From: Candidatus Abyssobacteria bacterium SURF_5
GTDB lineage: Bacteria > Abyssobacteria > SURF-5
Assembly (NCBI GenBank): GCA_003598085.1
Contig: QZKU01000115.1
Coordinates: 1 to 64,000, forward strand
Direction: 5' to 3'
Length of the DNA stretch: 64,000 bases
Of the stretch, positions 29,950-48,979 are shown piece by piece. The number at the start of each line of letters is the position of its first letter. Position 1 is the first letter of the stretch. The translations under genes and the position numbers were made by a program. The notes beneath the pieces are model-generated. The model did not search any database. It had not been told where the DNA came from and worked only from the letters and a program-made list of their open reading frames with translations.

Positions 29950-31695
29950 ATGCATTCCAATGCGATTGTAGCGGAACTCGGCGAGCGATTTGGAGCGGAA
30001 TCGATCCGGCCTCAGCAAACGCGTGACGGCGTGTCAACCGCCTGGGTTGCGCGCGATCTGGTTCACGATGTTCTCCGGTACCTGAAGTGGGATGCGAGCA
30101 AGCCGTACAAAATGTTGTACGATCTGACCGCAATCGACGAAAGAACCCGTATAAACAGGAATGGCGAACCTGCCGGCGATTTTACCGTTGTCTATCACCT
30201 GTATTCGTTTGACCGGAACGAATACGTGCGCCTGAAGGTCGCTCTTGAGGACGAGCATACCGCGATTCACACGATTACCGATTTGTGGCCGTCGGCCAAC
30301 TGGTACGAGCGCGAAATCTGGGACATGTTCGGCATCAAGGTGGAGGGACACCCCTATCTTGCGCGCATCCTGATGCCGCCGTGGTGGGAAGGTCATCCGC
30401 TGAGGAAAGATCATTATGCGCGGGCGACCGAAGCCGAACCGTTTCGTCTGCCGGAGGAAAAACACGAGGAGGACGAGAACCTGCTCCGGTTTCAGCCCGA
30501 ACAGTGGGGATTGAAACGTCAGAGCGAGGATACCGACTTCATCTTTCTGAACATGGGTCCGCAGCATCCGGGAACGCATGGAGTGCTTCGACTGGTCCTC
30601 CAGCTTGACGATGAGGAGATTGTTGACGTGGTGCCCGACATCGGATTTCATCATCGCGCCGCCGAGAAGATGGGGGAGCGGCAGTCGTGGCATACATATA
30701 TCCCGTACACCGACCGCGTCGATTATCTCGGCGGCGTCATGAACAATCTTGCTTACCTGATGGCGCTCGAGCTTCTGGCGGGCATTGAGGCGCCCGACCG
30801 CGCGAAAGTTGTCCGAGTCATGATGTCGGAACTGTTCCGGATCGCGAGCCACCTGGTATGGTACGGCACGTTCGCGCAGGACGTCGGCGCGCTCTCGCCG
30901 GTGTTCTACATGTTCACGGACCGCGAGCGAATCTTCACGATTGTCGAGGCGATCTGCGGCGGACGCATGCATCCGAACTGGTTTCGCATCGGCGGCGTGG
31001 CCCAGGATTTGCCGGTCGGCTGGGATGACCTCATGCGCGATTTCCTGGATTATCTGCCGAAGCGGATGAAGGAGTACGACAGGCTGGTGATGCAGAACAG
31101 CATCTTCAAGGCGCGCACGAAAGGGATCGGGACTTACACGCTGGAGCAAGCGATTGACTGGGGAGTGACGGGGCCGAATCTGCGCGCCTGCGGTCTGAAT
31201 TGGGATTTCCGCAAGAAGACGCCGTATTCAGGCTATGAGCAGTTTGATTTCGAGATACCGACTGCGCGGAACGGAGACAGCTATGACCGGGCTGTGGTCC
31301 GAGTCGAGGAGATTCGGCAGAGCCTGCGCATCATTCGGCAATGCGTCGAAAATATGCCGTCGGGGCCGTGGATGGCTGATCACCCTGCCGCGACGCCTCC
31401 CATGAAGCCGCGCACGATGCGCGATATTGAAACGCTGATCGTCCATTTTCTGAACGTGAGTTGGGGGCCGGTGATCCCGCCGGGCGAGGCTTTTTTCGGG
31501 ATCGAGGCAACCAAAGGCAATAATGGTTATTACCTGATCAGCGACGGGGGAACGATGGCGTATCGATTACGAATTCGCACGCCTTCGTTCCCGCATATTC
31601 AGACGGTGCCGTTGCTGGCGCGGGGGTTGATGGTTTCGGACCTGATCACGATCTTGGGAAGCATTGATTTTGTCATGTCGGATGTCGACCGATAG
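29950..31695 (+). CDS. nuoCD: NADH-quinone oxidoreductase subunits C and D, fused
   Basis: A 581-residue fusion. Residues 1-190 are NuoC (30-kDa: [21 protein letters not shown] and HPLRKD), residues 195-581 NuoD (49-kDa: [33 protein letters not shown], and a C-terminal [13 protein letters not shown]). The NuoCD fusion is known in enterobacteria and several other lineages. NuoD forms the quinone pocket with NuoB. AGAAGA lies before the start. The stop is followed within 17 bases by nuoE. Confidence 0.95.
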
Positions 31696-31711
31696 GAGCG
31701 GAGCAAGAAAC

Positions 31712-32176
31712 GTGTTGTCAGAGGAAGAACGGGCGGAGATAGAAGAAGAGGCAACCAAGTATAAATACAGGAAGGCTGTCGGTCCCGAAGCGTTAAAGAT
31801 CGTTCAGAAAAATCGGCGGTGGATATCCGATGAGACGCTGAAGGAAGTTGCTGCTTTTCTCGGGATGACCGCTGACGAACTGGACAGCGTGGCCACGTGC
31901 TACAACCTGATTTTTCGCCGACCGGTCGGCAGGCACGTCATCTTTATTTGCGACAGTGTTAGCTGCTGGATCATGGGTTATGAAGACGTTCGCGACTACT
32001 TGTTCCAGCGGCTCGGGGTCTCATTCGGGCAAACGACTTCCGACGGCCGGTTTACGCTTTTGCCGATTGCCTGCTTAGGCGCATGCGATGAGGCGCCCGC
32101 TATGATAGTTGACGAGCAGCTTTACACAATGCTTGACGCCGCCCAAATAGATGCGATTCTGGAGCGATATCAGTAA
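31712..32176 (+). CDS. nuoE: NADH-quinone oxidoreductase subunit E
   Basis: A protein of about 154 residues. N-terminal helices (EALKIVQKNRRWISDETLKEVA) precede a thioredoxin-like 2Fe-2S domain with ligands CDSVSC and CLGAC (C-x4-C, C-x3-C). GTG 31712 is preferred: GGAG lies 8 bases upstream and the start matches NuoE family length. ATG 31682, overlapping nuoCD, is the alternative. The stop overlaps the nuoF ATG by one base. Part of the NADH-input module. Confidence 0.92.
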   Translation: MLSEEERAEIEEEATKYKYRKAVGPEALKIVQKNRRWISDETLKEVAAFLGMTADELDSVATCYNLIFRRPVGRHVIFICDSVSCWIMGYEDVRDYLFQRLGVSFGQTTSDGRFTLLPIACLGACDEAPAMIVDEQLYTMLDAAQIDAILERYQ

Positions 32177-33450
32177 TGGATAAGCCGCTGACTCAGAATT
32201 TTCGCATTGAAGAAGAACCACCGAGCATACAGGAGTACGAGAAGAGCGGTGGTTACATGGCTTTGCGTAAAGCGCTGGAAATTCCGCCGCAGGACGTGCA
32301 GCGTCTGGTCAAAGAGTCCAATTTGAGGGGAAGGGGAGGCGCCGGTTTTCAAACAGGGATGAAATGGAGCTTTGTCCCGATGGGGCCCGATGCTCCCCGC
32401 CCGAAATATTATGTGGTGAATGCCGACGAAATGGAACCGGGCACCTTCAAAGACCGGTACCTGCTGGAGAACGATCCCCATCAGATTATCGAAGGCGCGA
32501 TAATCGGCGCCTATGCCATCGAAGCGGAATTCTCATACATTTTTCTTCGATGGGAATACAGAAGAGCGGCGCGGCGGATCGAGAAGGCGATTGCTGAGGC
32601 GTATCAGCGAGGATATTTGGGAAAGAATATTCTCAAATCGGGAATGAATCTTGAGATGCACCTGCACGTCAGCGCGGGCCGCTATATGTGCGGTGAGGAA
32701 TTCGGGCTGCTTGATGCGCTGGAGGGCAGACGCGCACACCCTCGCGCGAAACCGCCGTTCCCGCAAGTGTGCGGGTTATGGGGCAGGCCGACCGTGGTCA
32801 ACAACGTGGAAACAGTTGCGAACATCCGCCACATCATCATGAACGGCCCCGAGTGGTACAGGGGTCTGAGCCTGAGCGGCGATGGGGGAACGAAGCTGTT
32901 CGGCGTCAGCGGAAAGGTGCGGCGGCCGGGCCTGTGGGAGCTGCCGATGGGCATTTCTCTTGAAGAGCTTCTTGTCGAGCACGCGGGCGGAATGCAGGAG
33001 GGATATCGGCTGAAAGGCCTGCTTCCCGGCGGGGCATCGACGGACTTTCTCACCCATGAGCATCTTCAGGTGAAACTGGATTTTGATTCCGTCCAGCAGA
33101 TTGGCAGCCGGCTTGGAACCGGCACAGTCGTGGTTCTTGATGATAAGACATGCCCGGTTGGAATGGTGCATAACCTGATGGAATTCTTTGCCCGGGAATC
33201 CTGCGGCTGGTGCACGCCGTGCCGGGAAGGGCTTCCGTGGATCGAGAAGACGATGGCTGCGATTGAGAATGGGAATGGCAAGCCGGGCGATATAGAAATG
33301 CTGGAGGAGCAGACTCGTCTCATGGCGCCCGGAAACACGTTTTGTGCGCTTGCGCCGGGAGCGATGGAGCCGCTTCAGAGCGCGATCAAACATTTTCGTG
33401 ATGATTTCGAGAGACATATCAGCGAGCGTCGTTGCCCGTGGAGAAAATAA
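32176..33450 (+). CDS. nuoF: NADH-quinone oxidoreductase subunit F
   Basis: A 424-residue flavoprotein that oxidises NADH. NADH/FMN-binding glycine-rich motifs GRGGAGFQTGMKW (about residue 52) and the VVNADEMEPGTFKDR stretch are present. The 4Fe-4S N3 cluster ligands are ESCGWCTPCREG and the distal Cys in TFCALAPGAMEP. Its presence with NuoE and NuoG shows that this complex I takes electrons from NADH rather than ferredoxin or F420. Confidence 0.96.
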   Translation: MDKPLTQNFRIEEEPPSIQEYEKSGGYMALRKALEIPPQDVQRLVKESNLRGRGGAGFQTGMKWSFVPMGPDAPRPKYYVVNADEMEPGTFKDRYLLENDPHQIIEGAIIGAYAIEAEFSYIFLRWEYRRAARRIEKAIAEAYQRGYLGKNILKSGMNLEMHLHVSAGRYMCGEEFGLLDALEGRRAHPRAKPPFPQVCGLWGRPTVVNNVETVANIRHIIMNGPEWYRGLSLSGDGGTKLFGVSGKVRRPGLWELPMGISLEELLVEHAGGMQEGYRLKGLLPGGASTDFLTHEHLQVKLDFDSVQQIGSRLGTGTVVVLDDKTCPVGMVHNLMEFFARESCGWCTPCREGLPWIEKTMAAIENGNGKPGDIEMLEEQTRLMAPGNTFCALAPGAMEPLQSAIKHFRDDFERHISERRCPWRK

Positions 33451-36186
33451 GTGCCGGTCATTTACATTGAAAATGCGCCCTATGAGGTGAAAGACGGCCA
33501 GAACCTTTTAGCGGCATCGCTGTCGCTCGGATTTAATGTGCCGTACTTCTGCTGGCATCCGGCGATGCATTCGATTGGCGCATGCCGTCTGTGCGCGGTA
33601 AAGCAGTTTCGGGACGAGAACGATCACAAAGGGAAAATCGTGATGTCCTGCATGACACCTGCGACCGAGGGCACGCGCATCTCGATCTCCGATCCCGACG
33701 CCGTGAAATTTCGCAAGAGCGTGATCGAGTGGCTCATGGTTAATCACCCGCACGATTGTCCGGTCTGCGATGAGGGCGGCGAATGTCATCTGCAGGATAT
33801 GACGCTGCTGACGGGCCACGTTTACCGCAGATTCCGCTTCAAGAAACGGACTTACCGGAACCAGTATCTTGGGCCGTTCATCAACCACGAGATGAACCGG
33901 TGCATCCAGTGCTACCGCTGCGTGCGGTTCTATTGCGACTATGCCGGCGGGCGCGACTTGAACGTTTTCGGCTGGCACGACAACGTGTACTTCGGGCGGC
34001 ATGAAGACGGATTTCTGCAGAGCGAATTTGCCGGGAACCTTGTCGAGGTATGTCCGACGGGCGTATTTACCGACAAGACGCTGAAGCAGCATTATGCGCG
34101 GAAATGGGATTTACAGACGGCGCCATCGGTCTGCGTTCACTGCAGTCTGGGCTGCAACACGATTCCCGGCGAGCGGTATGGCATGCTTCGCCGCATCCGC
34201 AACCGGTACAACCGCGAAGTGAATGGTTATTTCCTGTGCGATCGCGGCCGCTTCGGCTATGAATTCGTGAACCATTCGGCCCGCATAAAGCAGCCGCTCA
34301 TTCGCAGGAACGGGAATCTTGAACCGATCGCGCGCGAAAACATCCTGAGCGAGCTCGAGCCGATAATCAAGAGCGAGGCGCATATTATCGGAATCGGTTC
34401 ACCGCGGGCGTCGGTGGAGGCCAACTATGCGCTACGCGCGCTGGTGGGTCCGGAGAATTTCTATCAGGGAACGACGCAAATCGAATTCGACGCGGTTTCA
34501 CTTATGGTTGATGTTCTGCGAAGAGGTCCGGCGCCTTCCGCTTCTTTGCATGATGTCGAGCGCGCCGACGCCGTGCTGGTGCTGGGGGAGGATGTGCCGA
34601 ATACCGCGCCCATTGCCGCGCTGGCGCTGCGCCAGTCTGTGATGAAGAAGCCGCTCGCGATCTCCCGGCAGATGAAGATTGATGACTGGCATGATATGGC
34701 CATGCGCGAGGCGATTCAGGATGACTATGGCCCGTGTTTTGTGGCTGCGCCACGTGCAACCAGGCTTGATGATATTGCAACGGCTGTATACCGGGCGGCG
34801 CCGGACGATATCGCCAGATTCGGATTTGCCGTTGCCCATGAACTGGATGCACAGGCGCCCGCTGTTCCCGATTTATCAGACGATGCGCTCGGACTTGCCA
34901 AACGAGCGGCGGTCGCGTTGAGAAATGCGGAGCGTCCTTTGGTCGTTTCCGGCAGCGGCTGCATGAATGCTTCATTGATCGAGGCGGCGGCACGCGTGGC
35001 GTTCGCCCTCGACTCTGTGGGAAAATCCTCGAACATTTTCCTTGTGCCCTCGTCGTGCAACAGCATGGGCGCGGCCATGCTGGGCGGAAAGCCGTTGGAT
35101 GAGGTAATGGAGGCGGCGGAAAAGGGAGCGGTGGATACCGCCATTATTCTCGAGAACGATCTTTACAGCAAGCTGGGATTTGCGCGCGCGGAGAAGTTCT
35201 TATCGGCAGTCGGAAAAGTTATCGTTCTCGATTCGCTGGCCACCTTTACGACGGAAAGAGCCGATATCGTTTTGCCCGCTGCGACATTTGCCGAATCCGA
35301 TGGGACTTTGATGAACAATGAGGCGCGGGCGCAGCGTTTTTTCAAAGTGCTCGCGCCGGAGGCCGATGTCCAAGAAAGCTGGAGATGGCTGAGCGATCTC
35401 CTTTCTTTCTCGGGTAACAATCACCACGCCGGGTGGAAAACGCTTGACGAACTGATCGCTGATATCGCAGCACATGTGCGGATATTCCGTCTTCTTCCTG
35501 AAGTTGCGCCGCCCGCGGACTTCCGTATTTCCGGCCAAAAGGTTCCACGCCAGCCGCATCGATACAGCGGCCGCACCGCAATGCATGCGCATATCGCCGT
35601 GCATGAAGCGGAGCCGCCCGAAGATATCGATTCGCCTCTCGCTTTTACGATGGAAGGATATCAGAGTCAGCCGCCTTCCTCTTTGATCGCCCATTTCTGG
35701 GCGCCGTACTGGAATTCGATCCAGTCGGTCACCAAATTTCAAAGCGAGGTTAATGGGGAGTTGGCGGGAGGAGACCCGGGGAAACGGCTTATTGAACCGG
35801 CGAGAGACAAGTCAATCACTCTTCCAGGTCGAGTTCCCGCCGCACTCAAAGTTCGTTCTGGCGAAGTGTTGGTTGTGCCGGCGTATCATGTTTTCGGATC
35901 GGAAGAGCTGAGCAGCCGCGCCGCCGGAATAGCGCAGCTTTCGCCGGCGCCTTATGTCGCGCTGAATCAAGCGGATGCGGAAGCCCAACGGCTGACTGAC
36001 GGCGACGCGCTCGAGCTGGAGATATCGGGCAAGAGCCACAGGCTGTTCCTCAAAGTCGATCCCTCTTTGCCGCCGGGGGTTGCCGCATTGCCTGCAGGTC
36101 TGTCGGGTGTGCCATGGGATCGTTCACCGTTTTGGTATGAATTGAAAAAAATGAAAAAGGTTTCGGCCAATGTTGGAGACGGCTAG
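33451..36186 (+). CDS. nuoG: NADH-quinone oxidoreductase subunit G
   Basis: A 911-residue subunit started at GTG 33451 directly after the nuoF stop. The N-terminal 2Fe-2S ligands are Cys34, Cys45, Cys48 and Cys67; then [18 protein letters not shown] (His-ligated N5), [11 protein letters not shown], and a further 4Fe-4S set (CVHCSLGC) corresponding to the N7-type cluster. A long molybdopterin-oxidoreductase-like domain follows without cofactor-binding obligations. Length is at the upper end for the family. It overlaps nuoH by 17 bases. Confidence 0.95.
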
Positions 36187-37123
36187 ATCGATCATCATTG
36201 TCTTCGGCATCCTGTTCGGGGCGTTCACGATCGCCTCAGGTCTGATCTGGCTTGAGCGGCGGCTGCTGGCCTTATGGCAGGACCGATACGGCCCGAACCG
36301 TGTCGGCGCGTTCGGCTCGCTTCAGGTGGTAGCCGACATAATCAAGATATTCATGAAGGAGGATTGGATTCCTCCATTCGCCGATAGACCGGTTTTCGTT
36401 ATTGCCCCGGCAATCATTGTGATTACCACGCTGATGGCTTTTGCCATTATTGTTGTTTCGCCGGGAATAACCGTTGTCGATATGGGAGTCGGATTGTTAT
36501 TCTTTCTGGCGATGTCTTCGATGGGGGTATACAGCCCGTCGCTGGGTGGCTGGTCTTCGAATAATAAGTACGCTCTTCTTGGGGGTCTTCGCGCGGCGGC
36601 GCAAATGCTGAGTTACGAAGTCTTCATGGGGCTTTCGCTCATGGGCGTGGTGATGCTGGCGGGCTCATTCAATATAACCGACATAGTCGAAGCTCAAGAG
36701 GAGGTGTGGTTTTGCATTCCGCAAGTGTTGGGGTTCATCGTATTTTTTGTAGCAGGAGTTGCCGAGACGCGGCGGCTGCCTTTTGATCTGCCGGAAGCGG
36801 AGAACGAGTTGATTGCGGGATATCACGCCGAATATTCGGGAATGAAATTCGGGATGTTCTTCGTTGGGGAATACATCGGGATTACCTTGATATCGGCGTT
36901 GCTGACGACCCTGTTTTTCGGGGGATGGCTCGGGCCGCTCTTTCCGGGCATCGTCTGGTTCGCGCTCAAGACGTTCTTTTTCATCTGTATTTTCATTCTG
37001 CTGAGAGGTACTCTGCCGCGTCCCCGGTACGACCAGCTCATGGCGATCGGCTGGAAGGTGATGCTTCCGCTGGCGCTGTTGAACCTGGTGATAACGGGGG
37101 CGGTCCTGCTGGCGCGCGGATAG
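36170..37123 (+). CDS. nuoH: NADH-quinone oxidoreductase subunit H
   Basis: A 317-residue membrane subunit with about eight helices linking the quinone site to the proton-pumping arm. It has the conserved [18 protein letters not shown] loop, [20 protein letters not shown] and [13 protein letters not shown], which line the quinone channel. The start overlaps the nuoG end by 17 bases. All the family segments I can check are present. Confidence 0.95.
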
Positions 37124-37131
37124 GAGGATTA

Positions 37132-37647
37132 ATGTTCAGCTTGCTGAAGGCGATGGCGATCGTTTTCTCGCACATGTTTCGCAAGCGCGAGACGGTCCTG
37201 TATCCCGAGGAGAAGCCGTCGATCCCGCCGCGGTGGCGGGGGCGCATCATTTTGTCGCGCGATCCGGACGGAGAGGAACGATGCGTCGCCTGCTATTTAT
37301 GCGCCGTTGCGTGTCCGGTGGATTGTATCGCGCTTCAATCAGCCGAGGACGAGCACGGCAGGCGCTACCCCTCGTTTTTCCGAATCAATTTCTCGCGGTG
37401 TATCTTCTGCGGTTTCTGTGAGGAGGCATGTCCCACGTATGCGATTCAATTGACTCCTGACTTTGAGATGAGCGAGTATCGCAGGGAGAGCCTGGTTTAT
37501 GAGAAGGAAGACCTGCTGATCAGCGGGACAGGCAAATATCCCGGCTACAATTTCTACAGGGTCGCGGGACTGGCGATTGGCGGAAAAGACAAAGGCGAAG
37601 CCGAAGGCGAAGAACCGCCGGTCGATGTGCGCGAATTGATGCCCTGA
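37132..37647 (+). CDS. nuoI: NADH-quinone oxidoreductase subunit I
   Basis: A 171-residue Fe-S subunit (TAGGAGG before ATG 37132). Two complete 4Fe-4S motifs are present, [12 protein letters not shown] and [12 protein letters not shown] (clusters N6a and N6b), which pass electrons towards NuoB. The C-terminal tail is acidic and Gly-rich ([12 protein letters not shown]), slightly longer than average. It lies 8 bases after nuoH. Confidence 0.95.
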
Positions 37648-37661
37648 AGGAAGGATGAGAA

Positions 37662-38174
37662 ATGAACACGACGTTTTATGTTACGGCTGCGGTGGGCATC
37701 TTATCGACGTTATTCGTCATCACCAGTCTGAATGCGGTGCATGCGCTCTTGTTCTTCATCGTTTCGCTTTTGGCGACTTCTCTCATTTTTTATATCCTCG
37801 GTGCCCCATTCGCGGCGATGCTGGTGATCATCATCAACGCGGGCGCAATCATGGTTTTGTTCGTGTTCGCCATCATGATTCTGAACCTGGGGCCGCATAT
37901 GACGGAATACGAAAAGCCGTCGTTTCAGCCGCGACAATGGGTGTTTCCCGTGTTCCTGGCGCTCATCCTCATTGGAGAATTCGTTTTCACCTTCTTTCAA
38001 CATAGTCCCGGCGTTGGAGTGCGCGAGATTGTGGACGCAAAACGAGTGGGCATCGCGCTGTTCGGGCCGTACGTGCTTGGAGTCGAAATGGCGTCGCTGC
38101 TCCTGCTGGCCGGACTGCTTGGCGCATATCACCTGGGGCCATATGCGATTAATCCAAGGGAGGCGAAGAAATAA
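37662..38174 (+). CDS. nuoJ: NADH-quinone oxidoreductase subunit J
   Basis: A 170-residue membrane subunit with five hydrophobic helices (FYVTAAVGILSTLFVITSLN at the start; ILGAPFAAMLVIIINAGAIM in the third helix, the conserved pi-bulge helix). It joins NuoH to the antiporter-like subunits. GGAAGGATGAG precedes the start. The stop abuts the nuoK ATG without a gap. Confidence 0.94.
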   Translation: MNTTFYVTAAVGILSTLFVITSLNAVHALLFFIVSLLATSLIFYILGAPFAAMLVIIINAGAIMVLFVFAIMILNLGPHMTEYEKPSFQPRQWVFPVFLALILIGEFVFTFFQHSPGVGVREIVDAKRVGIALFGPYVLGVEMASLLLLAGLLGAYHLGPYAINPREAKK

Positions 38175-38483
38175 ATGGTGTCCATACCGCTTGAAGCCGG
38201 CCTTCTTCTTGCCGCTGTCTTATTCGTCATCGGTCTCGTCGGCATCCTGATACGGCGCAATATCCTGTTCATTCTCCTCTCGATCGAGATATTGCTGAAC
38301 GCGTCCGGCCTGGCCTTTATCGTGGCGGGATACCATTGGAACCAGCCGGACGGGCAGGTAATGTTTTTCTTCATACTAACCATGGCGGCGGCGGAAGTTG
38401 CAGTCGGGCTCGCGCTGGCGCTTCTTATGTTTCATGAATTCAAGACACTTAATATCGATCAACTGACCAGGATGCAGGGATAA
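38175..38483 (+). CDS. nuoK: NADH-quinone oxidoreductase subunit K
   Basis: A 102-residue subunit with three helices, homologous to MrpC. It has GILIRRNILFILLSIEILLN, which carries the conserved Glu of the second helix, and AAAEVAVGLALALLMF with the third-helix Glu. Both Glu residues take part in proton translocation in known complexes. It directly follows nuoJ. Confidence 0.95.
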   Translation: MVSIPLEAGLLLAAVLFVIGLVGILIRRNILFILLSIEILLNASGLAFIVAGYHWNQPDGQVMFFFILTMAAAEVAVGLALALLMFHEFKTLNIDQLTRMQG

Positions 38484-38484
38484 C

Positions 38485-40374
38485 ATGCTAAAGGTTCTGT
38501 GGCTGGTGCCGGCATTGCCGCTGGCGACCTTTTTCCTGCTGGCGGTAGCGGGCGCGCGGATGCCGCGGCGCATGACGGCGATAATCGGCGTAGGCTCGGT
38601 GGGGCTTTCTGCGATACTGACAATACTTATAGGATTGGAGTTCATAAACACGCCCCCGCCGGATTTCCGGTTCACGCAAACGCTCTGGACGTGGATGCTG
38701 GTGGGCGATTTCCGGGCTGATTTCGGCCTGCATCTCGATGCGCTTTCTCTGGTCATGATATTCGTTGTTACGTTTGTCGGCTATTTCATCCATTTCTATT
38801 CGACTGATTTCATGCATGATGATGACGGGTTCAGCCGTTTTTTCGCTTACATGAATCTGTTCGTTGCCTCGATGCTCATCCTGGTACTTGCGGACAACCT
38901 GCTCTTTCTGCTGCTCGGCTGGGAGGGCGTCGGCCTGTGCAGTTACCTGCTTATCGGGTTCTGGTACAGAAATTCCGAAAACGGAAAAGCGGCCATAAAG
39001 GCTTTTGTCGTTACGCGAATCGGCGATGTCGCTTTTCTCATCGCTCTGTTTGTCATTTTTACGAGTCTGGCAACGCTGGACATTCGGGAGGCGATGGAGC
39101 GCGCGGGGCTGCAGTGGACGCCAAATTCGGCGGTCGCGCTGTGGGCGGCGCTCCTCCTATTGATTGGAGCGATCGGCAAATCCGCTCAGCTTCCGCTGCA
39201 GGTGTGGCTGCCGGACGCGATGGCGGGCCCGACTCCCGTCAGCGCATTGATTCATGCCGCCACCATGGTTGCCGCAGGCGTATACCTGGTGGCGCGAATG
39301 AACGGGCTCTTTGTGCTGGCGCCTTCGATTCAGCAGCTCATCTTGATTCTTGCAATCGCGACGGTATTGATGGCAGGGTGCAGCGCTCTGGTGCAGGAAG
39401 ACCTTAAGCGGGTGCTCGCGTATTCCACGATCAGTCAGATGGGCTACATGTTCCTTGCGCTCGGAGCGGGGGCGTGGGCGGCGGCCATCTTTCATTTTCT
39501 GACGCATGCTTTCTTCAAGGCGCTCCTGTTCTTGTGCGCGGGCGTCGTCATTCTGGCGGTCCATCACGAGACCAGCATCTTCAAGATGGGGGGGCTGCGA
39601 AACAAGATTCCGCTCGTCTTCTGGACCTTTCTGATTGGCGCATTGACGACATCGGGAATTCCGCCGACAGCCGGTTTTGCGAGCAAGGATCTGATCATGT
39701 ATAGCGTGTGGAACCTTCCCAACGGAGGCCCGATCCTCTGGGGAGCCGCACTGCTCGGAGTCTTCATCACTTCGTTGTACAGTTTTCGGATGCTATTCCT
39801 GGTCTTCTTCCGGGAGACCAAAGCGGAACCGGCGAGGCGAGCCGGCTTCTATATGGGGATGCCGCTTGCTGTGCTTGCAACATTTTGTTTCCTGACCGCG
39901 GTTCTCGATTGGCCCCATGCCTTTTTCGGATCGCCGATCCTTTCCAATTTTTTGGCTTCCTCATTTCCTCCAATGCCCGCGAGTCAGCCCTCGGTTTCAG
40001 TGGAATCAATAACCGGAGCAGTTTCGGTTGCGGCGGGCATCTTGGGGATTTTTGCGGCATGGCTGTTCTTCCTGGCCAAGCGTGAGTACGTGAATGCCAT
40101 CATTTCAACAAGGGCGGGCTCGCTTGTGCATCGGTTCTGGTTTTCCGGATGGGGTTTCGATTGGCTTTACGAGCGGGTATTCATCCGGCCGTATGTCCGG
40201 GCGACGCGCAGGAACAGGAATGATGTTATTGATCGTTTCTATGACGGAGTTGCCGCCGTTATGGAGAATGTGCACGGGTTGCTCTCCCTCACGCAGAACG
40301 GAAACCTGCGCTGGTATGCGATGAGCATAGTGATCGGCGCAATCGTTTTTCTGGCGGTGATAATCTTCTCATGA
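38485..40374 (+). CDS. nuoL: NADH-quinone oxidoreductase subunit L
   Basis: A 629-residue antiporter-like proton pump with about 14 core helices, the conserved Glu in LLGWEGVGLCSYLLIGFWY, broken-helix motifs (GKSAQLPLQVWLPDAMAGPT, with the Lys) and a C-terminal extension that forms the lateral helix and an anchoring helix (residues 500-629). It starts one base after the nuoK stop and overlaps nuoM by 4 bases. Confidence 0.95.
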   Translation: MLKVLWLVPALPLATFFLLAVAGARMPRRMTAIIGVGSVGLSAILTILIGLEFINTPPPDFRFTQTLWTWMLVGDFRADFGLHLDALSLVMIFVVTFVGYFIHFYSTDFMHDDDGFSRFFAYMNLFVASMLILVLADNLLFLLLGWEGVGLCSYLLIGFWYRNSENGKAAIKAFVVTRIGDVAFLIALFVIFTSLATLDIREAMERAGLQWTPNSAVALWAALLLLIGAIGKSAQLPLQVWLPDAMAGPTPVSALIHAATMVAAGVYLVARMNGLFVLAPSIQQLILILAIATVLMAGCSALVQEDLKRVLAYSTISQMGYMFLALGAGAWAAAIFHFLTHAFFKALLFLCAGVVILAVHHETSIFKMGGLRNKIPLVFWTFLIGALTTSGIPPTAGFASKDLIMYSVWNLPNGGPILWGAALLGVFITSLYSFRMLFLVFFRETKAEPARRAGFYMGMPLAVLATFCFLTAVLDWPHAFFGSPILSNFLASSFPPMPASQPSVSVESITGAVSVAAGILGIFAAWLFFLAKREYVNAIISTRAGSLVHRFWFSGWGFDWLYERVFIRPYVRATRRNRNDVIDRFYDGVAAVMENVHGLLSLTQNGNLRWYAMSIVIGAIVFLAVIIFS

Positions 40375-41939
40375 TTCTGGCATGGCTGTTGATAGTGTTA
40401 CTCGCCGGCGCCGCGCTCTCGTGGTTGGTGAGTCGATGGAGCTCGCAGGCGAGCCGGTGGATTGCGCTCGCGGCGCTTGCAGTCGACTTTGCGCTCGTGG
40501 TTTTCCTTTGGGCTCGGCATCCCATTTCGCCTTCTCTCGATCCAACTGTGCTCGCGGAAATAAATTGGCGATGGATTCCGCAGATAGGCGCATCGTTCCA
40601 TCTCGCCGCGGATGGGCTGAGCCTGATTCTCGTGACGCTCACGCTGTTTCTGGGTGGCGCGGCGGTGGCGGCCTCCTGGACCGAAATACGACATCGAGTC
40701 GGCTTCTTCCATTTCAATTTGCTTCTCACGCTCGCCGGCATTATCGGCGTGTTTACCGCGCTGGACTTATTCCTCTTTTATTTTTTCTGGGAATTGATGC
40801 TTGTCCCGATGTATTTCCTCATCATTCTGTGGGGACATGAAAATCGAGTTCGGGCCGGGCTGAAGTTTTTCATTTTCACACAGGCCAGCGGCCTCCTGAT
40901 GCTGGTATCGATTCTCGCGCTGTATTTTCTTTATGCGGAAGGCGGAGGAGTCTACAGCTTCGATTACAGAGAATTGCTGCAGGTTGCAGTCGAGAGGAAG
41001 CCGCATGCCGTTTGGCTTATGCTTGGCTTTTTCGCCGCCTTCGCGGTCAAGCTTCCTGTTGTTCCGTTGCATGTGTGGTTGCCGGACGCTCATACGGAAG
41101 CGCCGACGGCGGGAAGCGTTATTCTTTCCGGACTGATGTTAAAGACGGGAGCTTACGGATTCTTGCGTTTTTTGGTCCCATTCTTTCCCGGAATCGCAGC
41201 CGAATTCATGACCGCCGCATTTGTTCTCGCCGTTGTTGGGATTCTATATGGAGCGGCGCTCGCGTTCGCACAAACCGATCTAAAGCGGTATGTCGCTTTT
41301 TCGAGTGTGAGCCACATGGGCTTTATCCTGCTCGGTATTGCTGCCTGGAACGAGCTGGCCCTGCAGGGCGTGGTTATTGTCATACTCGCTCATGGTTTGA
41401 GCACGAGCGCACTGTTTATTCTGGTTGGCGCGCTTCAGGAGCGGATACACACGCGCGATCTCGGCGTAATGGGCGGCCTGTGGGATGTCCTTCCGAAAAT
41501 GGGGGGGGCAGGCACGTTTTTCGCGCTGGCATCGCTTGGTTTGCCCGGACTTGCCAACTTCGTGGGCGAATTCCTCGTACTGTTGGGAACATACCAGGTG
41601 AATCCCACTCTTGCCATTCTTTCCGCGTTGGGTCTTGTTTTCTCGGCTGTGTACTCCTTATGGCTGGTGCAGCGCGCGTTTCACGGATCGGTTATCCGGC
41701 AGTGGGATTTGCCGAGAACCAGTATTCGCGAGATGACCGTCTTTGGGCTTTTTATGGCCGGGCTCATTTGGATCGGGTTGTTTCCCCAGCCTGTATTTCG
41801 TGCGGCTGGGCCCGCACTGGAAGCGCTTCGTGCGGGTACGGCGAAAAAGAGTCAGCGGGATTCTCACAGAGATTCAGCCGCAGCAGTCCCTGATCCCGTT
41901 GCTGAAGACAGGTTGCCTCCGGCAAAGGCCTTTCAATGA
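40371..41939 (+). CDS. nuoM: NADH-quinone oxidoreductase subunit M
   Basis: A 522-residue antiporter-like subunit. The conserved Glu is in FYFFWELMLVPMYFLI, the broken-helix Lys region in FAVKLPVVPLHVWLPDAHTEA, and AFAQTDLKRYVAFSSVSHMG marks the second half. The hydrophilic tail after residue 490 (RAGTAKKSQRDSHRDSAAAV) is longer than in common homologues. Overlaps of 4 bases with nuoL and nuoN indicate coupled translation. Confidence 0.94.
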   Translation: MILAWLLIVLLAGAALSWLVSRWSSQASRWIALAALAVDFALVVFLWARHPISPSLDPTVLAEINWRWIPQIGASFHLAADGLSLILVTLTLFLGGAAVAASWTEIRHRVGFFHFNLLLTLAGIIGVFTALDLFLFYFFWELMLVPMYFLIILWGHENRVRAGLKFFIFTQASGLLMLVSILALYFLYAEGGGVYSFDYRELLQVAVERKPHAVWLMLGFFAAFAVKLPVVPLHVWLPDAHTEAPTAGSVILSGLMLKTGAYGFLRFLVPFFPGIAAEFMTAAFVLAVVGILYGAALAFAQTDLKRYVAFSSVSHMGFILLGIAAWNELALQGVVIVILAHGLSTSALFILVGALQERIHTRDLGVMGGLWDVLPKMGGAGTFFALASLGLPGLANFVGEFLVLLGTYQVNPTLAILSALGLVFSAVYSLWLVQRAFHGSVIRQWDLPRTSIREMTVFGLFMAGLIWIGLFPQPVFRAAGPALEALRAGTAKKSQRDSHRDSAAAVPDPVAEDRLPPAKAFQ

Positions 41940-43393
41940 CGATAAATGACATTGTAACGCTGCTGCCACTGATCGCGTTGAGCGTATCAGCGGCGACGAT
42001 CATGCTGGTGATTCCGTTCCGGCGTTCTCACCGGTTGACGTTCGGCTTGACGCTGGGAGCGTTGCTCGTGTGTTTCGCTCTGCTGCCGGTATCATTATTT
42101 TGGGGATCTGCCCGTGTTTGTCCCCTCCTGACAGTTGACGGGTTCGCGCTCTTCTATATGGGCCTCTTTCTTCTTACGACTGCGGTAGTGGCGGGTCTTT
42201 CATACGAATATATCGAGGGACGAGAGACAAAGAAAGAAGAGTTTTATGTTTTGCTGCTGATTGGGACGCTGGGTGCCTCAATTATTGTCTCGAGCGCGCA
42301 TTTTGCATCTCTTTTTCTCGGACTGGAATTGCTGAGCGTGGCGCTGTATGTTCTGATCGCCTACCTGCGGTCGATTAATCTGCACTTTGAAGCCGCGATT
42401 AAATATCTGATTCTGGCGTCAACATCGGTTGCTTTTCTGTTGTTCGGCATGGCGTTGATCTACGCGGATGTCGGCACGATGAGCTTTCGCGGCATTGCGG
42501 ATGCAATAACGATGTCGGAAAGGTTGGATGCGTTGCTGCTGGCGGGCTCGGTCCTGTTGCTTATCGGCATTGGATTCAAACTCGCGGTCGTGCCGTTCCA
42601 TTTGTGGACGCCGGATGTGTATCAGGGTGCTCCTTCGCCGGTTGCGGGATTCATTGCCACTGCCTCGAAAGGTTCCATTGTGGCGCTGCTGTTGCGGTAC
42701 TTCTCCATAGTGGGGAGCGAGCGGTTCGACTCTCTTTTCATGATGCTGTCGATCATCGCAGTCGCCTCAATGCTCGCGGGCAATATACTGGCGCTCTTGC
42801 AGCGGAACGTCAAGCGGCTGCTGGCATACTCATCGATTTCTCATATGGGGTACATGCTGGTGGCCTTGCTGGCGAGCGGAAACGCAGCGATTTTTGCGAT
42901 CAGCTTTTATCTGATCGTATATTTTATCGCCACTTTAAGCGCGTTTGGAGTGATAAGCGTGCTTTCCGCGAAAGAGAGGGATTATGATGAGCTTTCGGAA
43001 TATCGCGGGCTCGCGTATCAGCATTTTTGGCTGTCGGCGCTGATGACCGGAGCGCTCCTATCTCTGGCGGGGATTCCGATAACTGCGGGATTTATCGGGA
43101 AGTTCCTTTTGGTTTCGGCCGCTGTCGGCGCCCGGCTCTGGCTGTTGATTATCGCGCTTATCATAAGCAGTGCAATCAACGTGTTTTATTATCTTCGAGT
43201 GGTTGTTTATCTGTACTCGAGACCGGGAGAAGAATACGTGTTGTTGCCGGAAGAGACGCGCGAAGTTCTTCCTTCGTTTTCAATTTGTGCCGGTTTTGCG
43301 CTCGCAGCGCTTGCATTCCTTCTGGTGCTAGTCGGAATTTTCCCTTCGCCGCTAATCCGGTTGATTCAGATTCTGGCGATGCAGTTGGAATGA
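41936..43393 (+). CDS. nuoN: NADH-quinone oxidoreductase subunit N
   Basis: A 485-residue antiporter-like subunit with about 14 helices, GLELLSVALYVLIAYLR carrying the key Glu, FKLAVVPFHLWTPDVYQGAP (Lys) and LLQRNVKRLLAYSSISHMGY. It ends the operon, only 5 bases from the convergent M20 peptidase gene, leaving no room for a normal terminator between them. Confidence 0.95.
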   Translation: MTINDIVTLLPLIALSVSAATIMLVIPFRRSHRLTFGLTLGALLVCFALLPVSLFWGSARVCPLLTVDGFALFYMGLFLLTTAVVAGLSYEYIEGRETKKEEFYVLLLIGTLGASIIVSSAHFASLFLGLELLSVALYVLIAYLRSINLHFEAAIKYLILASTSVAFLLFGMALIYADVGTMSFRGIADAITMSERLDALLLAGSVLLLIGIGFKLAVVPFHLWTPDVYQGAPSPVAGFIATASKGSIVALLLRYFSIVGSERFDSLFMMLSIIAVASMLAGNILALLQRNVKRLLAYSSISHMGYMLVALLASGNAAIFAISFYLIVYFIATLSAFGVISVLSAKERDYDELSEYRGLAYQHFWLSALMTGALLSLAGIPITAGFIGKFLLVSAAVGARLWLLIIALIISSAINVFYYLRVVVYLYSRPGEEYVLLPEETREVLPSFSICAGFALAALAFLLVLVGIFPSPLIRLIQILAMQLE

Positions 43394-45214: not shown

Positions 45215-46870
45215 TTAGCTTCTGCGCAAAACTTTGCCATGGAGTTGCCGCGATTTGTATGTGCCGTTATCCACCACGACGTGCCCGTTCAGCAGCACGT
45301 ATTTGATTCCCTCCGACTCTGCCGTCGGATTCTTCAGGGTCGCATGATCGATGACAGTCTTCGGATCGAACGCGACCACGTCAGCCGCATAAGCCTTCTT
45401 CAGCAGGCCGCGGTCCTTCAACCCGGTCCGAGCAGCCGGCAGCGAGGTCATTTTGCGAACAGCCTCTTCGAGCGACATCAGCTTCAATTCGCGCACGTAA
45501 TGTCCGAGGATGCGCGGATAATTTCCCCATGAGTTCGGATATTGCCACCCCTTGCGCGTGATCATGCAATCAGTCTCAAACGAATTCAGCGGATGCGCCA
45601 GCACACGCCGCAGGACGGCCTCATCACGCTTGTTTCCGCTGTACTGCGCGAGGAAAATGCGCGCCAGCACCTTGCTTTCCACGACCAGATAGCAATAAGC
45701 ATCGAATGGGTCTTCATTTCGCATCTCGGCGATTTCGCGAACATTTTTCCCTTCATATTTTTCCAGGCTCGGAACACCGCCCCACATGAGCACCAGGTCG
45801 TCGTAGTCGAATTGAAGCAGCACCTTTGCCGTGTCCATTTCCGCGCGAATCCGCTCCCTTGTCTGGGGGTTCTTCAGATTATTCACCAAATCGGGCAGCG
45901 CCCATGCCGGGAAAATGACGGCGATGGTGGAGATGCCGACGGTGTAGGCGTAGGCATCGAAGCCGACGTCGATTCCCCGCTTAACGGCCGCTTCGATCTC
46001 GTTGATGACGGCATCGGTCGTCGATTGCCATGTATTCTGCCCGACAAAGATCAGGTGTGAAATCTGCAGCGGCTGGCCCGTCAATTCGCCCACCTTGATG
46101 AAATCTTTCACCGAGCGCAGGTTATGCGGCTCGCCTCCGATTTCTTCGTATGCCGGCGAAACCCAACTGTAGGCCTGCAGGTGCGACGGGAACATCGCGT
46201 TGTATTCTTTCACGATTTTTGCGAACTCGATAACTTCCTCCTGCGGACTGAAGATGCCGGGCGAGTACCCAAGGCCTGTCGAGATGCCGAAAGCTCCCTC
46301 CTCGAGGCTCCGGCGCACCAGTTGCTTCATTTTTTCGAGTTCTTCCTTGTTCGGCGGCGCCGTATCCTCCCCTTTAACCGCGAAATGAAGCGCTGCGTGT
46401 CCTACAAGTTCAGCTACATTGAAGGAGACGCCCTGCCTGTCGATATGATCGAGAAACTGCCCCATCGAGTGCCACGGGAAAACTTCATCCAGGTTTTTTC
46501 CGGCCGGCATGTCTCCGAGCAGTAGCGAGATGGCGCGCCTCATCGCGATCTCTTTGAACCGGCTCGACAGCGGCGCCGGCGAGAAACCGCAATTGCCGGT
46601 GACCATCGTGGTGACGCCCTGCTTGAGCAACGGACTGAGGAGGTCGCTGTGGTCGGGGTCGAGGATCGGCCAATCGAAATGGGAATGGATATCGATAAAT
46701 CCCGGGGTTACCACCATGCCGGAGGCATCGATTACGCGATCGGCCTGAGCGCCTGCGAGATCGCCGACGTCCGCTATTCTGTCGCCGGAAATCCCGACGT
46801 CCGCCCGAAATGCCGCCTTCCCACTGCCATCGATAACGTTTCCGTGCTTGATCAGTACATCGAAAGTCAT
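45215..46870 (-). CDS. D-aminoacylase / N-acyl-D-amino-acid deacylase
   Basis: A 551-residue metal-dependent amidohydrolase. The N-terminal domain ends in TPGFIDIHSHFDW (HxH); VTTMVTGNCGFSPAPL and LIFVGQNTWQSTTDAV are standard for the D-aminoacylase branch, and residues 420-551 include KMTSLPAARTGLKDRG, the typical C-terminal barrel return. It hydrolyses N-acyl-D-amino acids or related N-acyl compounds. AAGGTG precedes the start. Likely first gene of the small minus-strand operon. Confidence 0.9.
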   Translation of the reverse strand: MTFDVLIKHGNVIDGSGKAAFRADVGISGDRIADVGDLAGAQADRVIDASGMVVTPGFIDIHSHFDWPILDPDHSDLLSPLLKQGVTTMVTGNCGFSPAPLSSRFKEIAMRRAISLLLGDMPAGKNLDEVFPWHSMGQFLDHIDRQGVSFNVAELVGHAALHFAVKGEDTAPPNKEELEKMKQLVRRSLEEGAFGISTGLGYSPGIFSPQEEVIEFAKIVKEYNAMFPSHLQAYSWVSPAYEEIGGEPHNLRSVKDFIKVGELTGQPLQISHLIFVGQNTWQSTTDAVINEIEAAVKRGIDVGFDAYAYTVGISTIAVIFPAWALPDLVNNLKNPQTRERIRAEMDTAKVLLQFDYDDLVLMWGGVPSLEKYEGKNVREIAEMRNEDPFDAYCYLVVESKVLARIFLAQYSGNKRDEAVLRRVLAHPLNSFETDCMITRKGWQYPNSWGNYPRILGHYVRELKLMSLEEAVRKMTSLPAARTGLKDRGLLKKAYAADVVAFDPKTVIDHATLKNPTAESEGIKYVLLNGHVVVDNGTYKSRQLHGKVLRRS

Positions 46871-47107: not shown

Positions 47108-48979
47108 ATGAGTTCAAAAAAATGCAGATACTGCCGGAATGCCGTACCGCTTTCGTGCCTCCCCCAAGGGGAAGAACCGAAAGACGTATGCATACTGCAC
47201 GATCCCGACGCGAGGAAGGATGTCGCTCAGTTTTTGGCGCTGGTTCATGCACGGCTGAACAGCGGCAATTATAATTTCTCCGGCTTTGTGTTTCCTGAAG
47301 GGGCGTCAGATTTCAGAGGACAAAATTTTGGCGCCGACGCGGACTTTTCGAAAGCCGTATTTTTGGGAGACGCCTCATTCCGATCAACTCGATTCGGCGG
47401 GACGTCGGTTGATTTCAGCGGGGCCGAGTTTCGAGGAAGAGCCGATTTTAGCGATTCGACCTTCGAATGCGGGACGCTTTTTTTTTCGCACGCCATTTTC
47501 TCCGGCTCGACCGCCGAATTCAGCCGCGCTTCTTTCCGGAGCGAGACGACGAACTTTAATGGAGTCAGCTTTGAAGCGGCCGCCGATTTCAGCGGAGCTT
47601 GTTTTGAGGGCATGGGGACATACTTCACCGAAGGCATTTTTTCCGGACGCCGCGCCGACTTTTCGCGGTGCTATTTCGACGGTGAAATGACAAATTTCAA
47701 ATGGTTGCAATTTTTGTGCGACATCGATTTCAGCGAGTCCCGATTTACCGGGAGAGAGGTCAATTTTCAGGAGACAAGATTCTCGCGAGGAGTCGCTCGA
47801 TTTGAGAAGGCTTGTTTTCTCGGGAACAAGACTGTCTTCGCCGAGTGCCGCTTCTCGGGCGGCGGGTGCAGTTTCAGCAGAGCGCACTTTGGCGGAGAGG
47901 AAGTCGTTTTTCACGGGACTCAGTTTGCCGGCGAGACAGCCTCATTCTCCGATGCGAAATGCACGTGCTCAAAGATCAGTTTTCATCCCGCTCTATTCTC
48001 AGCCGAGCAGAGCGATTTCTCAAAAATGCAGTTTCATCTCGCATCTGCCGATTTCCGTGAAACCGTCTTCTCCGGCGCGTCCACCACATTTGCAGGGGCT
48101 GAATTCAATGGGAAGGCGGAGTTTGACGGCGCCACATTTTCAATGGAGTATCCTCCACTCTTTGACGATGTCCAGTTTTGCGATTCCGCCTCATTCAGTA
48201 AAGTCCGGTTGGATTACGGAGCGAGTTTTGATGGCGCGAAGTTTCTCGCGGAGGCGGATTTCTCGCACGCACGCTTTGCCGGCAAATCCGGCAGACCGAT
48301 CAGCTTTCAGCGGGCGCGTTTTTCAGGGGCTTGCTCATTCGAACGCGTCGATCTGCGGCACACGCTGTTCGGCGATTTTCAGATGCAGTCGCAGTTTCGG
48401 GCCGACCGAGCCGCATGGCCTTCCATCCGATATTTCCTTTACCTAAGAAAGCGCTACACCTGCGCCGACGAAATCGAGGCTCGCGATCCCGGGGCGCAAC
48501 GGAGCGCGGCGGCCGCCCTGGAAATTCTGGAACAGGCTGCCCGAACAGAATCAAACAAGCGTCTTGCAAACGATTTTGCATTCTCGGCGCACGAATGCCG
48601 TCGAAAAGCACGCCTGCTATTTTCGCTTCGCCGCTATTTGGAACTCGTGTTTGGCGCATGGCTCAGCGGGTATGGCCGGAAAATCGGAAATATTGCGCTG
48701 TCAGCCGTGTTCATTATTCTTATTTTCGCTGCCATATTTTTTCTTGTAGGCGAAATGACTTCAGCCGCGGCTGCCGGTATGGGCGGAAACGGTGAATGGG
48801 CAATTTGTCGGTTCGCGGGGTGCGTGGCGAAGAGTATGTACATATTCTTTTCGGCCGGTCTGACTGATCTGGAGGCAGCGACGAAGCCAGGCGATTTGCT
48901 GGTGAGACTGGAGGGCGTCATCGGCTTTTTGATCATGTCTATATTCCTTTTTGTGGTCCTTCGGAACCGCAAAACCTAG
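47108..48979 (+). CDS. Pentapeptide-repeat protein with channel-like C-terminal membrane pair
   Basis: A 623-residue protein. The N-terminus has a zinc-ribbon-like set CRYCRNAVPLSC and CILHDP. Residues about 55-405 are imperfect Phe-centred pentapeptide repeats (ADFSxAxFxG units), predicted to form a right-handed quadrilateral helix. The C-terminus has helices near 515-537 and 596-618 with a loop AKSMYIFFSAGLTDLEAATK and GVIGFLIMSIFLFVVLRNRK, like the two-helix K+ channel module, but the TxGYGD filter is absent. Function is unknown; a membrane sensor or a degenerate channel is possible. Confidence 0.85.
   Translation: MSSKKCRYCRNAVPLSCLPQGEEPKDVCILHDPDARKDVAQFLALVHARLNSGNYNFSGFVFPEGASDFRGQNFGADADFSKAVFLGDASFRSTRFGGTSVDFSGAEFRGRADFSDSTFECGTLFFSHAIFSGSTAEFSRASFRSETTNFNGVSFEAAADFSGACFEGMGTYFTEGIFSGRRADFSRCYFDGEMTNFKWLQFLCDIDFSESRFTGREVNFQETRFSRGVARFEKACFLGNKTVFAECRFSGGGCSFSRAHFGGEEVVFHGTQFAGETASFSDAKCTCSKISFHPALFSAEQSDFSKMQFHLASADFRETVFSGASTTFAGAEFNGKAEFDGATFSMEYPPLFDDVQFCDSASFSKVRLDYGASFDGAKFLAEADFSHARFAGKSGRPISFQRARFSGACSFERVDLRHTLFGDFQMQSQFRADRAAWPSIRYFLYLRKRYTCADEIEARDPGAQRSAAAALEILEQAARTESNKRLANDFAFSAHECRRKARLLFSLRRYLELVFGAWLSGYGRKIGNIALSAVFIILIFAAIFFLVGEMTSAAAAGMGGNGEWAICRFAGCVAKSMYIFFSAGLTDLEAATKPGDLLVRLEGVIGFLIMSIFLFVVLRNRKT

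Follow-up and report, generated by a model that had tools for sequence, protein, structure and literature searches.

A pentapeptide-repeat solenoid joined to a K+-channel-like module with a degenerate selectivity filter in Candidatus Abyssobacteria

Introduction

Does a protein whose C-terminus resembles a two-helix K+-channel pore still act as a channel when the signature of the selectivity filter is missing? The question is raised by P0001, the product of one gene in the window (the whole stretch of 64,000 nucleotides analysed here), for which a first-pass annotation had offered two readings, a non-canonical channel or a membrane sensor. No description of this architecture was found in open-licence papers, and a 2021 review of pentapeptide-repeat proteins (PMC8145042) does not use the word "channel".

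Gene layout, N-terminus and solenoid

The gene lies exactly where the first-pass annotation had placed it, and its frame is intact over 623 codons (623 aa), beginning with ATG and preceded by TAAGGA about 9 bases upstream as a possible ribosome-binding site. From N- to C-terminus, P0001 consists of a CCCH N-terminus, a solenoid, a helical linker, TM1, a re-entrant-like helix and loop, and TM2 (Table 1). When P0001 was used as a single-protein query, no match was returned from the PDB, nor from a first scan of the genome contigs.

Table 1. Features of the P0001 gene in window coordinates.
Feature	Position	Strand	Evidence
Whole gene: CCCH N-terminus, pentapeptide-type solenoid, linker and 2TM pore-like module with degenerate filter	47108..48979	+	ORF, translation, Pfam, relatives
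N-terminal C-x2-C-x18-C-x2-H motif, putative metal-binding knuckle	47108..47215	+	Alignments; metal binding inferred
Solenoid, residues 60-420	47285..48367	+	Pfam, row listing, autocorrelation, model, PDB fold match
Helical linker, residues 431-526, ANDFxxSAxECRRK ... SGYGRK	48398..48685	+	Family conservation; helices in models
TM1, residues 527-552	48686..48763	+	Hydropathy and model
Pore-helix equivalent, residues 563-582	48794..48853	+	Low-confidence model and alignment with channel relatives
Filter position S-A-G-L-T-D, residues 582-587, replacing T-V-G-Y-G-D	48851..48868	+	Gap-free alignment with L043, L045 and L046
TM2, residues 594-621	48887..48970	+	Alignment and model; the family's E and hinge-like G (LEGVIGF) retained

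The Zn-ribbon-like N-terminus proposed earlier corresponds to a real C-x2-C-x18-C-x2-H motif, the four ligands of which (C6, C9, C28 and H31) are invariant in 6 aligned sequences and also in the 5-sequence full-length alignment; zinc binding itself is a plausible extension of this pattern.

The solenoid was likewise correctly recognized. The Pfam model Pentapeptide_3 matched P0001 in 10 stretches (E=1.9e-29), and about 27 repeat rows, mostly of 11-13 residues each, could be listed from residue 67 to about 408, with a dominant spacing of 12 residues (5+7) by both row listing and autocorrelation. In the AlphaFold2 model (five sequences), pLDDT was mostly >90 across residues 60-420, and a structure search identified QnrB1 as the nearest PDB fold to the solenoid. 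A pentapeptide-repeat protein is defined by at least eight contiguous pentapeptide-type repeats in a quadrilateral beta-helix, and the rows, the Pfam match, the model and the QnrB1 fold match place P0001 among these proteins, though with 12-residue spacing. The linker that follows is conserved across the family and ends in a GYG motif immediately N-terminal to TM1.

Homology of the C-terminal module

Hydropathy revealed two clear hydrophobic helices at the C-terminus. To relate them to channel pores, a profile was built from 21 filter-bearing pentapeptide-linked channels with P0001 left out (the filter-only profile), and it matched P0001 over residues 507-623 at E=3.5e-12 and a Theionarchaea relative, L045, at E=1.6e-22; reversed or C-terminally shuffled control proteins reached 1e-4 at best, with the linker still intact there. 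A family profile of 8 rows, P0001 included, retrieved KirBac, KCa3.1 and KcsA (best E=1.6e-8). Because the profile of filter-bearing relatives finds P0001, sequence comparison shows that its C-terminus is homologous to, and derived from, a K+-channel pore, as the earlier reading of channel-like helices had suggested; the TM1-P-TM2 module of the 2TM/P K+ channels is present by the same match.

Pfam could be cited for the view that the two helices are a membrane anchor arrived at by chance, with no relation to channels: it did not list Ion_trans_2 (PF07885) for P0001 and placed Ion_trans (its S5-P-S6 stretch) on residues 515-617 at E=0.0057, below the curated cut-off. We give this explanation virtually no credence, given the filter-only match and the linker and GYG motif held in common with the family.

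The AlphaFold2 model (five sequences) resolved TM1, the pore-helix equivalent, a loop and TM2 with the boundaries in Table 1, at block-mean pLDDT of about 36-68, and a model of the C-terminus only gave the same order of elements at a mean pLDDT of 65. When the latter was used in a structure search, the top matches were almost all K+-channel-superfamily or TRP pores, none of them significant (best E=0.16). The first-pass annotation had named a loop lying outside the pore as evidence against its reading; the models instead have the helix and loop following TM1 and preceding TM2, albeit with low confidence. Read from the sequence, Arg/Lys residues flank both presumed cytoplasmic membrane borders, and no signal peptide was seen.

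The replaced selectivity filter

TxGYGD is absent from P0001, and the loop AGLTDLEAATK occupies residues 583-593, both as previously reported. Where channel relatives read TVGYGD, P0001 reads SAGLTD, and the P-loops align without gaps: SVITFTTVGYGDISPATGLARTIAMAEG (L043), SMYIFFSAGLTDLEAATKPGDLLVRLEG (P0001) and SSITFSHLSQPTIAPAGGLARATVAVEG (L045). The filter of P0001 has therefore been substituted position by position and not deleted. Loop length is unchanged, and of TVGYGD the first G and the D remain; the main losses are Y to L and second G to T. The S and F of the pore helix and the E and G of TM2 are also retained. The earlier wording, a module without the selectivity filter, thus holds for the signature but slightly overstates the loss. 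With SAGLTD in place of T-x-G-[YF]-G, P0001 does not qualify as a K+ channel in the functional sense, while its descent from such channels is supported by the alignments; it probably no longer conducts K+ selectively.

One alternative is that P0001 is a working non-selective cation pore gated by the solenoid, in which SAGLTD keeps the inner half of the filter (S/T-A-G) and has lost the outer half. In NaK (filter TVGDG) and CNG channels (TIGETP), which are non-selective members of the K+-channel superfamily, the inner half is kept and the outer half changed, as in P0001, and CNG channels also carry T in the second-Gly position; they differ from P0001 in having no pentapeptide solenoid and in that their permeation has been measured. 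Several features speak for such a pore: the replacement involves no gap and leaves S, G and D in place, the pore helix and the hinge-like Gly of TM2 are preserved, and the models show the elements in the order of a channel. No other protein with the SAGLTD motif was found among the relatives, which counts against it, as do the pore-less relatives described below, and we consider it unlikely, if deserving of some weight.

Filter states among relatives

The survey of homologues for the filter that the first-pass annotation had proposed was carried out by using linker and N-terminal profiles, and the relatives fell into three states: those with a canonical filter, those with two helices and no filter, and those ending right after TM1. 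The canonical state is represented by L043 (Gemmatimonadota MAG CP070758.1) and L046 (TA06 SM23_40), each of which matches Ion_trans_2 (PF07885) at about 1e-15 and shares with P0001 the CCCH N-terminus, the Pentapeptide_3 solenoid, the linker with its GYG(E) motif and the TM1-P-TM2 order. They differ in reading TVGYGD for SAGLTD and in a shorter solenoid, which in L043 has a period of 11 and not 12.

Filter loss is also seen in related proteins across bacteria and archaea, among them L045 (Theionarchaea), L044 (Zixiibacteriota), L105 and L112, which have the solenoid, linker and 2TM hairpin of P0001 but differ in the loop: that of L045 reads HLSQPT, and most others have no recognizable remnant. 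In L045 (4001-5380, Theionarchaea archaeon SZ_28-30) the filter is wholly replaced but the pore helix and TM2 are otherwise preserved, which makes this archaeal protein a suitable natural counterpart to L043.

The linker tree comprised 10 relatives with the filter, 31 without (P0001 counted) and 3 TM1-only proteins. This ratio is skewed by the seed profile A2, most of which had no filter; it shows that filterless forms are common but not how frequent they are. Two to three changes of filter state are needed on this tree. Several independent losses are therefore likely but not proven, because the starred branches alone force one. The clearest separate loss is that of L045 when set against L043, to which it is 35% identical over 500 aa. 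For a further profile, A6, run over one large phylum, mainly linker-reaching matches were followed up, so that the search gives no prevalence figure; it mostly caught ordinary channels because of GYGD. One A2 match, L034, resembled a multi-TM permease and was excluded from the tree.

Two further proteins, L035 and L030 (genomes G122 and G259), have no solenoid; in each, a filterless two-helix module comes after a GYGERPLR motif, and L035 has the module twice in tandem. Genomes G413 and G449, of one family, encode several filterless solenoid-2TM paralogues (L105, L106, L110-L112, L116-L118 and L120), of which L106 has a filter.

Relatives that end after TM1

Five proteins from one other phylum (L102-L104, L158 and L039, from genomes G394, G395, G396, G145 and G282) keep the N-terminus, solenoid, linker and TM1 and lack the P-loop and TM2. 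No TM2 hidden by a frameshift was seen in the three downstream frames of L039 and L102-L104. The best full-length matches to P0001 were L102-L104 (E down to 5e-35), at about 25-28% identity across some 580 residues spanning the N-terminus, solenoid and linker. The TM1-only proteins and P0001 have in common the CCCH N-terminus, a long solenoid with a 12-residue period (tested in L102 and L039, as against 11 (5+6) in filter-bearing L043 and in L045) and an ANDF..SA.ECRRK-type linker; they differ in that P0001 retains the P-loop and TM2.

Among the sister orthologues L102, L103 and L104, dN/dS was 0.09-0.13 overall and 0.03-0.04 in the linker, which shows strong purifying selection and maintenance of these pore-less genes. 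At a dN/dS of about 0.1, the solenoid-linker-TM1 part therefore works without a pore, and the existence of such close full-length relatives weighs against the non-selective cation pore.

The linker tree groups P0001 with the TM1-only proteins (95/71), whereas a tree from N-terminus, solenoid and linker gives its place 48/53, probably owing to misaligned repeats. A position beside the TM1-only clade is thus weakly supported, and these proteins may not be its sisters. The first-pass annotation would have given up the channel reading for homologues with the same solenoid and no channel-like helices; the five proteins go part of the way, lacking P-loop and TM2 but still keeping TM1.

Genome context

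Three genomes of the phylum were searched in all, and the P0001 gene is absent from the two others, in which the cytochrome c gene found here downstream of P0001 lies elsewhere; in G001 it directly adjoins the diaminopimelate decarboxylase gene, without P0001. Because of this absence from both genomes and from that junction, P0001 appears to be an accessory gene; the genes around it are not informative on function. Elsewhere in the window, an N-acyl-D-amino-acid-deacylase-like amidohydrolase (45215-46870, - strand) has 11 matches in its own genome and 78% identical orthologues in two relatives, and a complex I gene run (29950-43393) ends in three consecutive Proton_antipo_M subunits.

A decaying pseudogene, or an assembly error hiding a TVGYGD filter, might be suspected of a single-copy gene absent from the other two genomes. 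We hold this to be highly improbable: the 623-aa frame is intact, the solenoid match is strong, other proteins show similar filter losses, and a frameshift does not explain SAGLTD because the loop aligns without a gap.

Electrically silent subunits keep the pore fold with a broken filter, and P0001 might by analogy assemble with a canonical K+ channel in its own cell as a dominant-negative or regulatory subunit. No second convincing member of the pore family was found in its genome, however, where the next profile matches were at E=0.16 and 0.18, and we think this role improbable.

PADLOC profiles, searched for an anti-phage defence effector, matched neither P0001 nor any of five relatives at E values up to 1. 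The full-length fold search listed HalA (PDB 9nyi) in second place (E=5e-3, rmsd 19), a weak and probably mixed match that was set aside.

Discussion

The reading that we favour, with somewhat more confidence than doubt, is that P0001 descends from a solenoid-bearing 2TM K+ channel and now most likely serves as a membrane-anchored scaffold or sensor. Its family combines a solenoid with a CCCH N-terminus, a helical linker and a two-helix K+-channel pore. In P0001 both termini, and with them the solenoid, would be cytoplasmic; replacement of the selectivity motif would have ended K+-selective conduction, and the 2TM hairpin would mainly anchor, and perhaps oligomerize, the solenoid on the cytoplasmic side of the membrane, and the solenoid together with the CCCH domain would bind a partner there. 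That the hairpin is probably chiefly an anchor and not a K+ channel follows from the loss of the filter motif in related proteins too, and the five TM1-only proteins favour the sensor or scaffold half of the earlier proposal over its non-canonical channel half.

Several comparisons suggest that the pore has lost its function: P0001 has a broken filter signature, its closest full-length relatives terminate behind TM1, the 12-residue period and the linker-tree grouping tie P0001 to those relatives, and filterless 2TM forms are common. The retention of TM2, pore helix, hinge-like Gly, loop length and the filter G and D would argue against a pure anchor, and the longer tree also counts against the scaffold or sensor reading. 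The bolder proposal, which we regard as rather doubtful, is that P0001 is a non-selective cation channel gated by its solenoid, that S-A-G-L-T-D is a kind of filter not described before, and that alteration or loss of the filter happened repeatedly in the family.

A membrane pentapeptide-repeat protein is known in HglK of Anabaena, which affects septal architecture and, like P0001, joins the repeats to membrane helices; it differs in its four N-terminal TM helices and AXLXX repeats, and no pore homology is reported for it (PMC8145042). With P0001, the role of membrane pentapeptide-repeat proteins becomes testable through its family. This family shows a K+-channel pore in progressively reduced states, from a canonical filter through a degenerate filter to the loss of P-loop and TM2, while solenoid and linker remain under selection as the attached pore is reduced, and it offers natural pseudo-channels and altered filters for channel biophysics.
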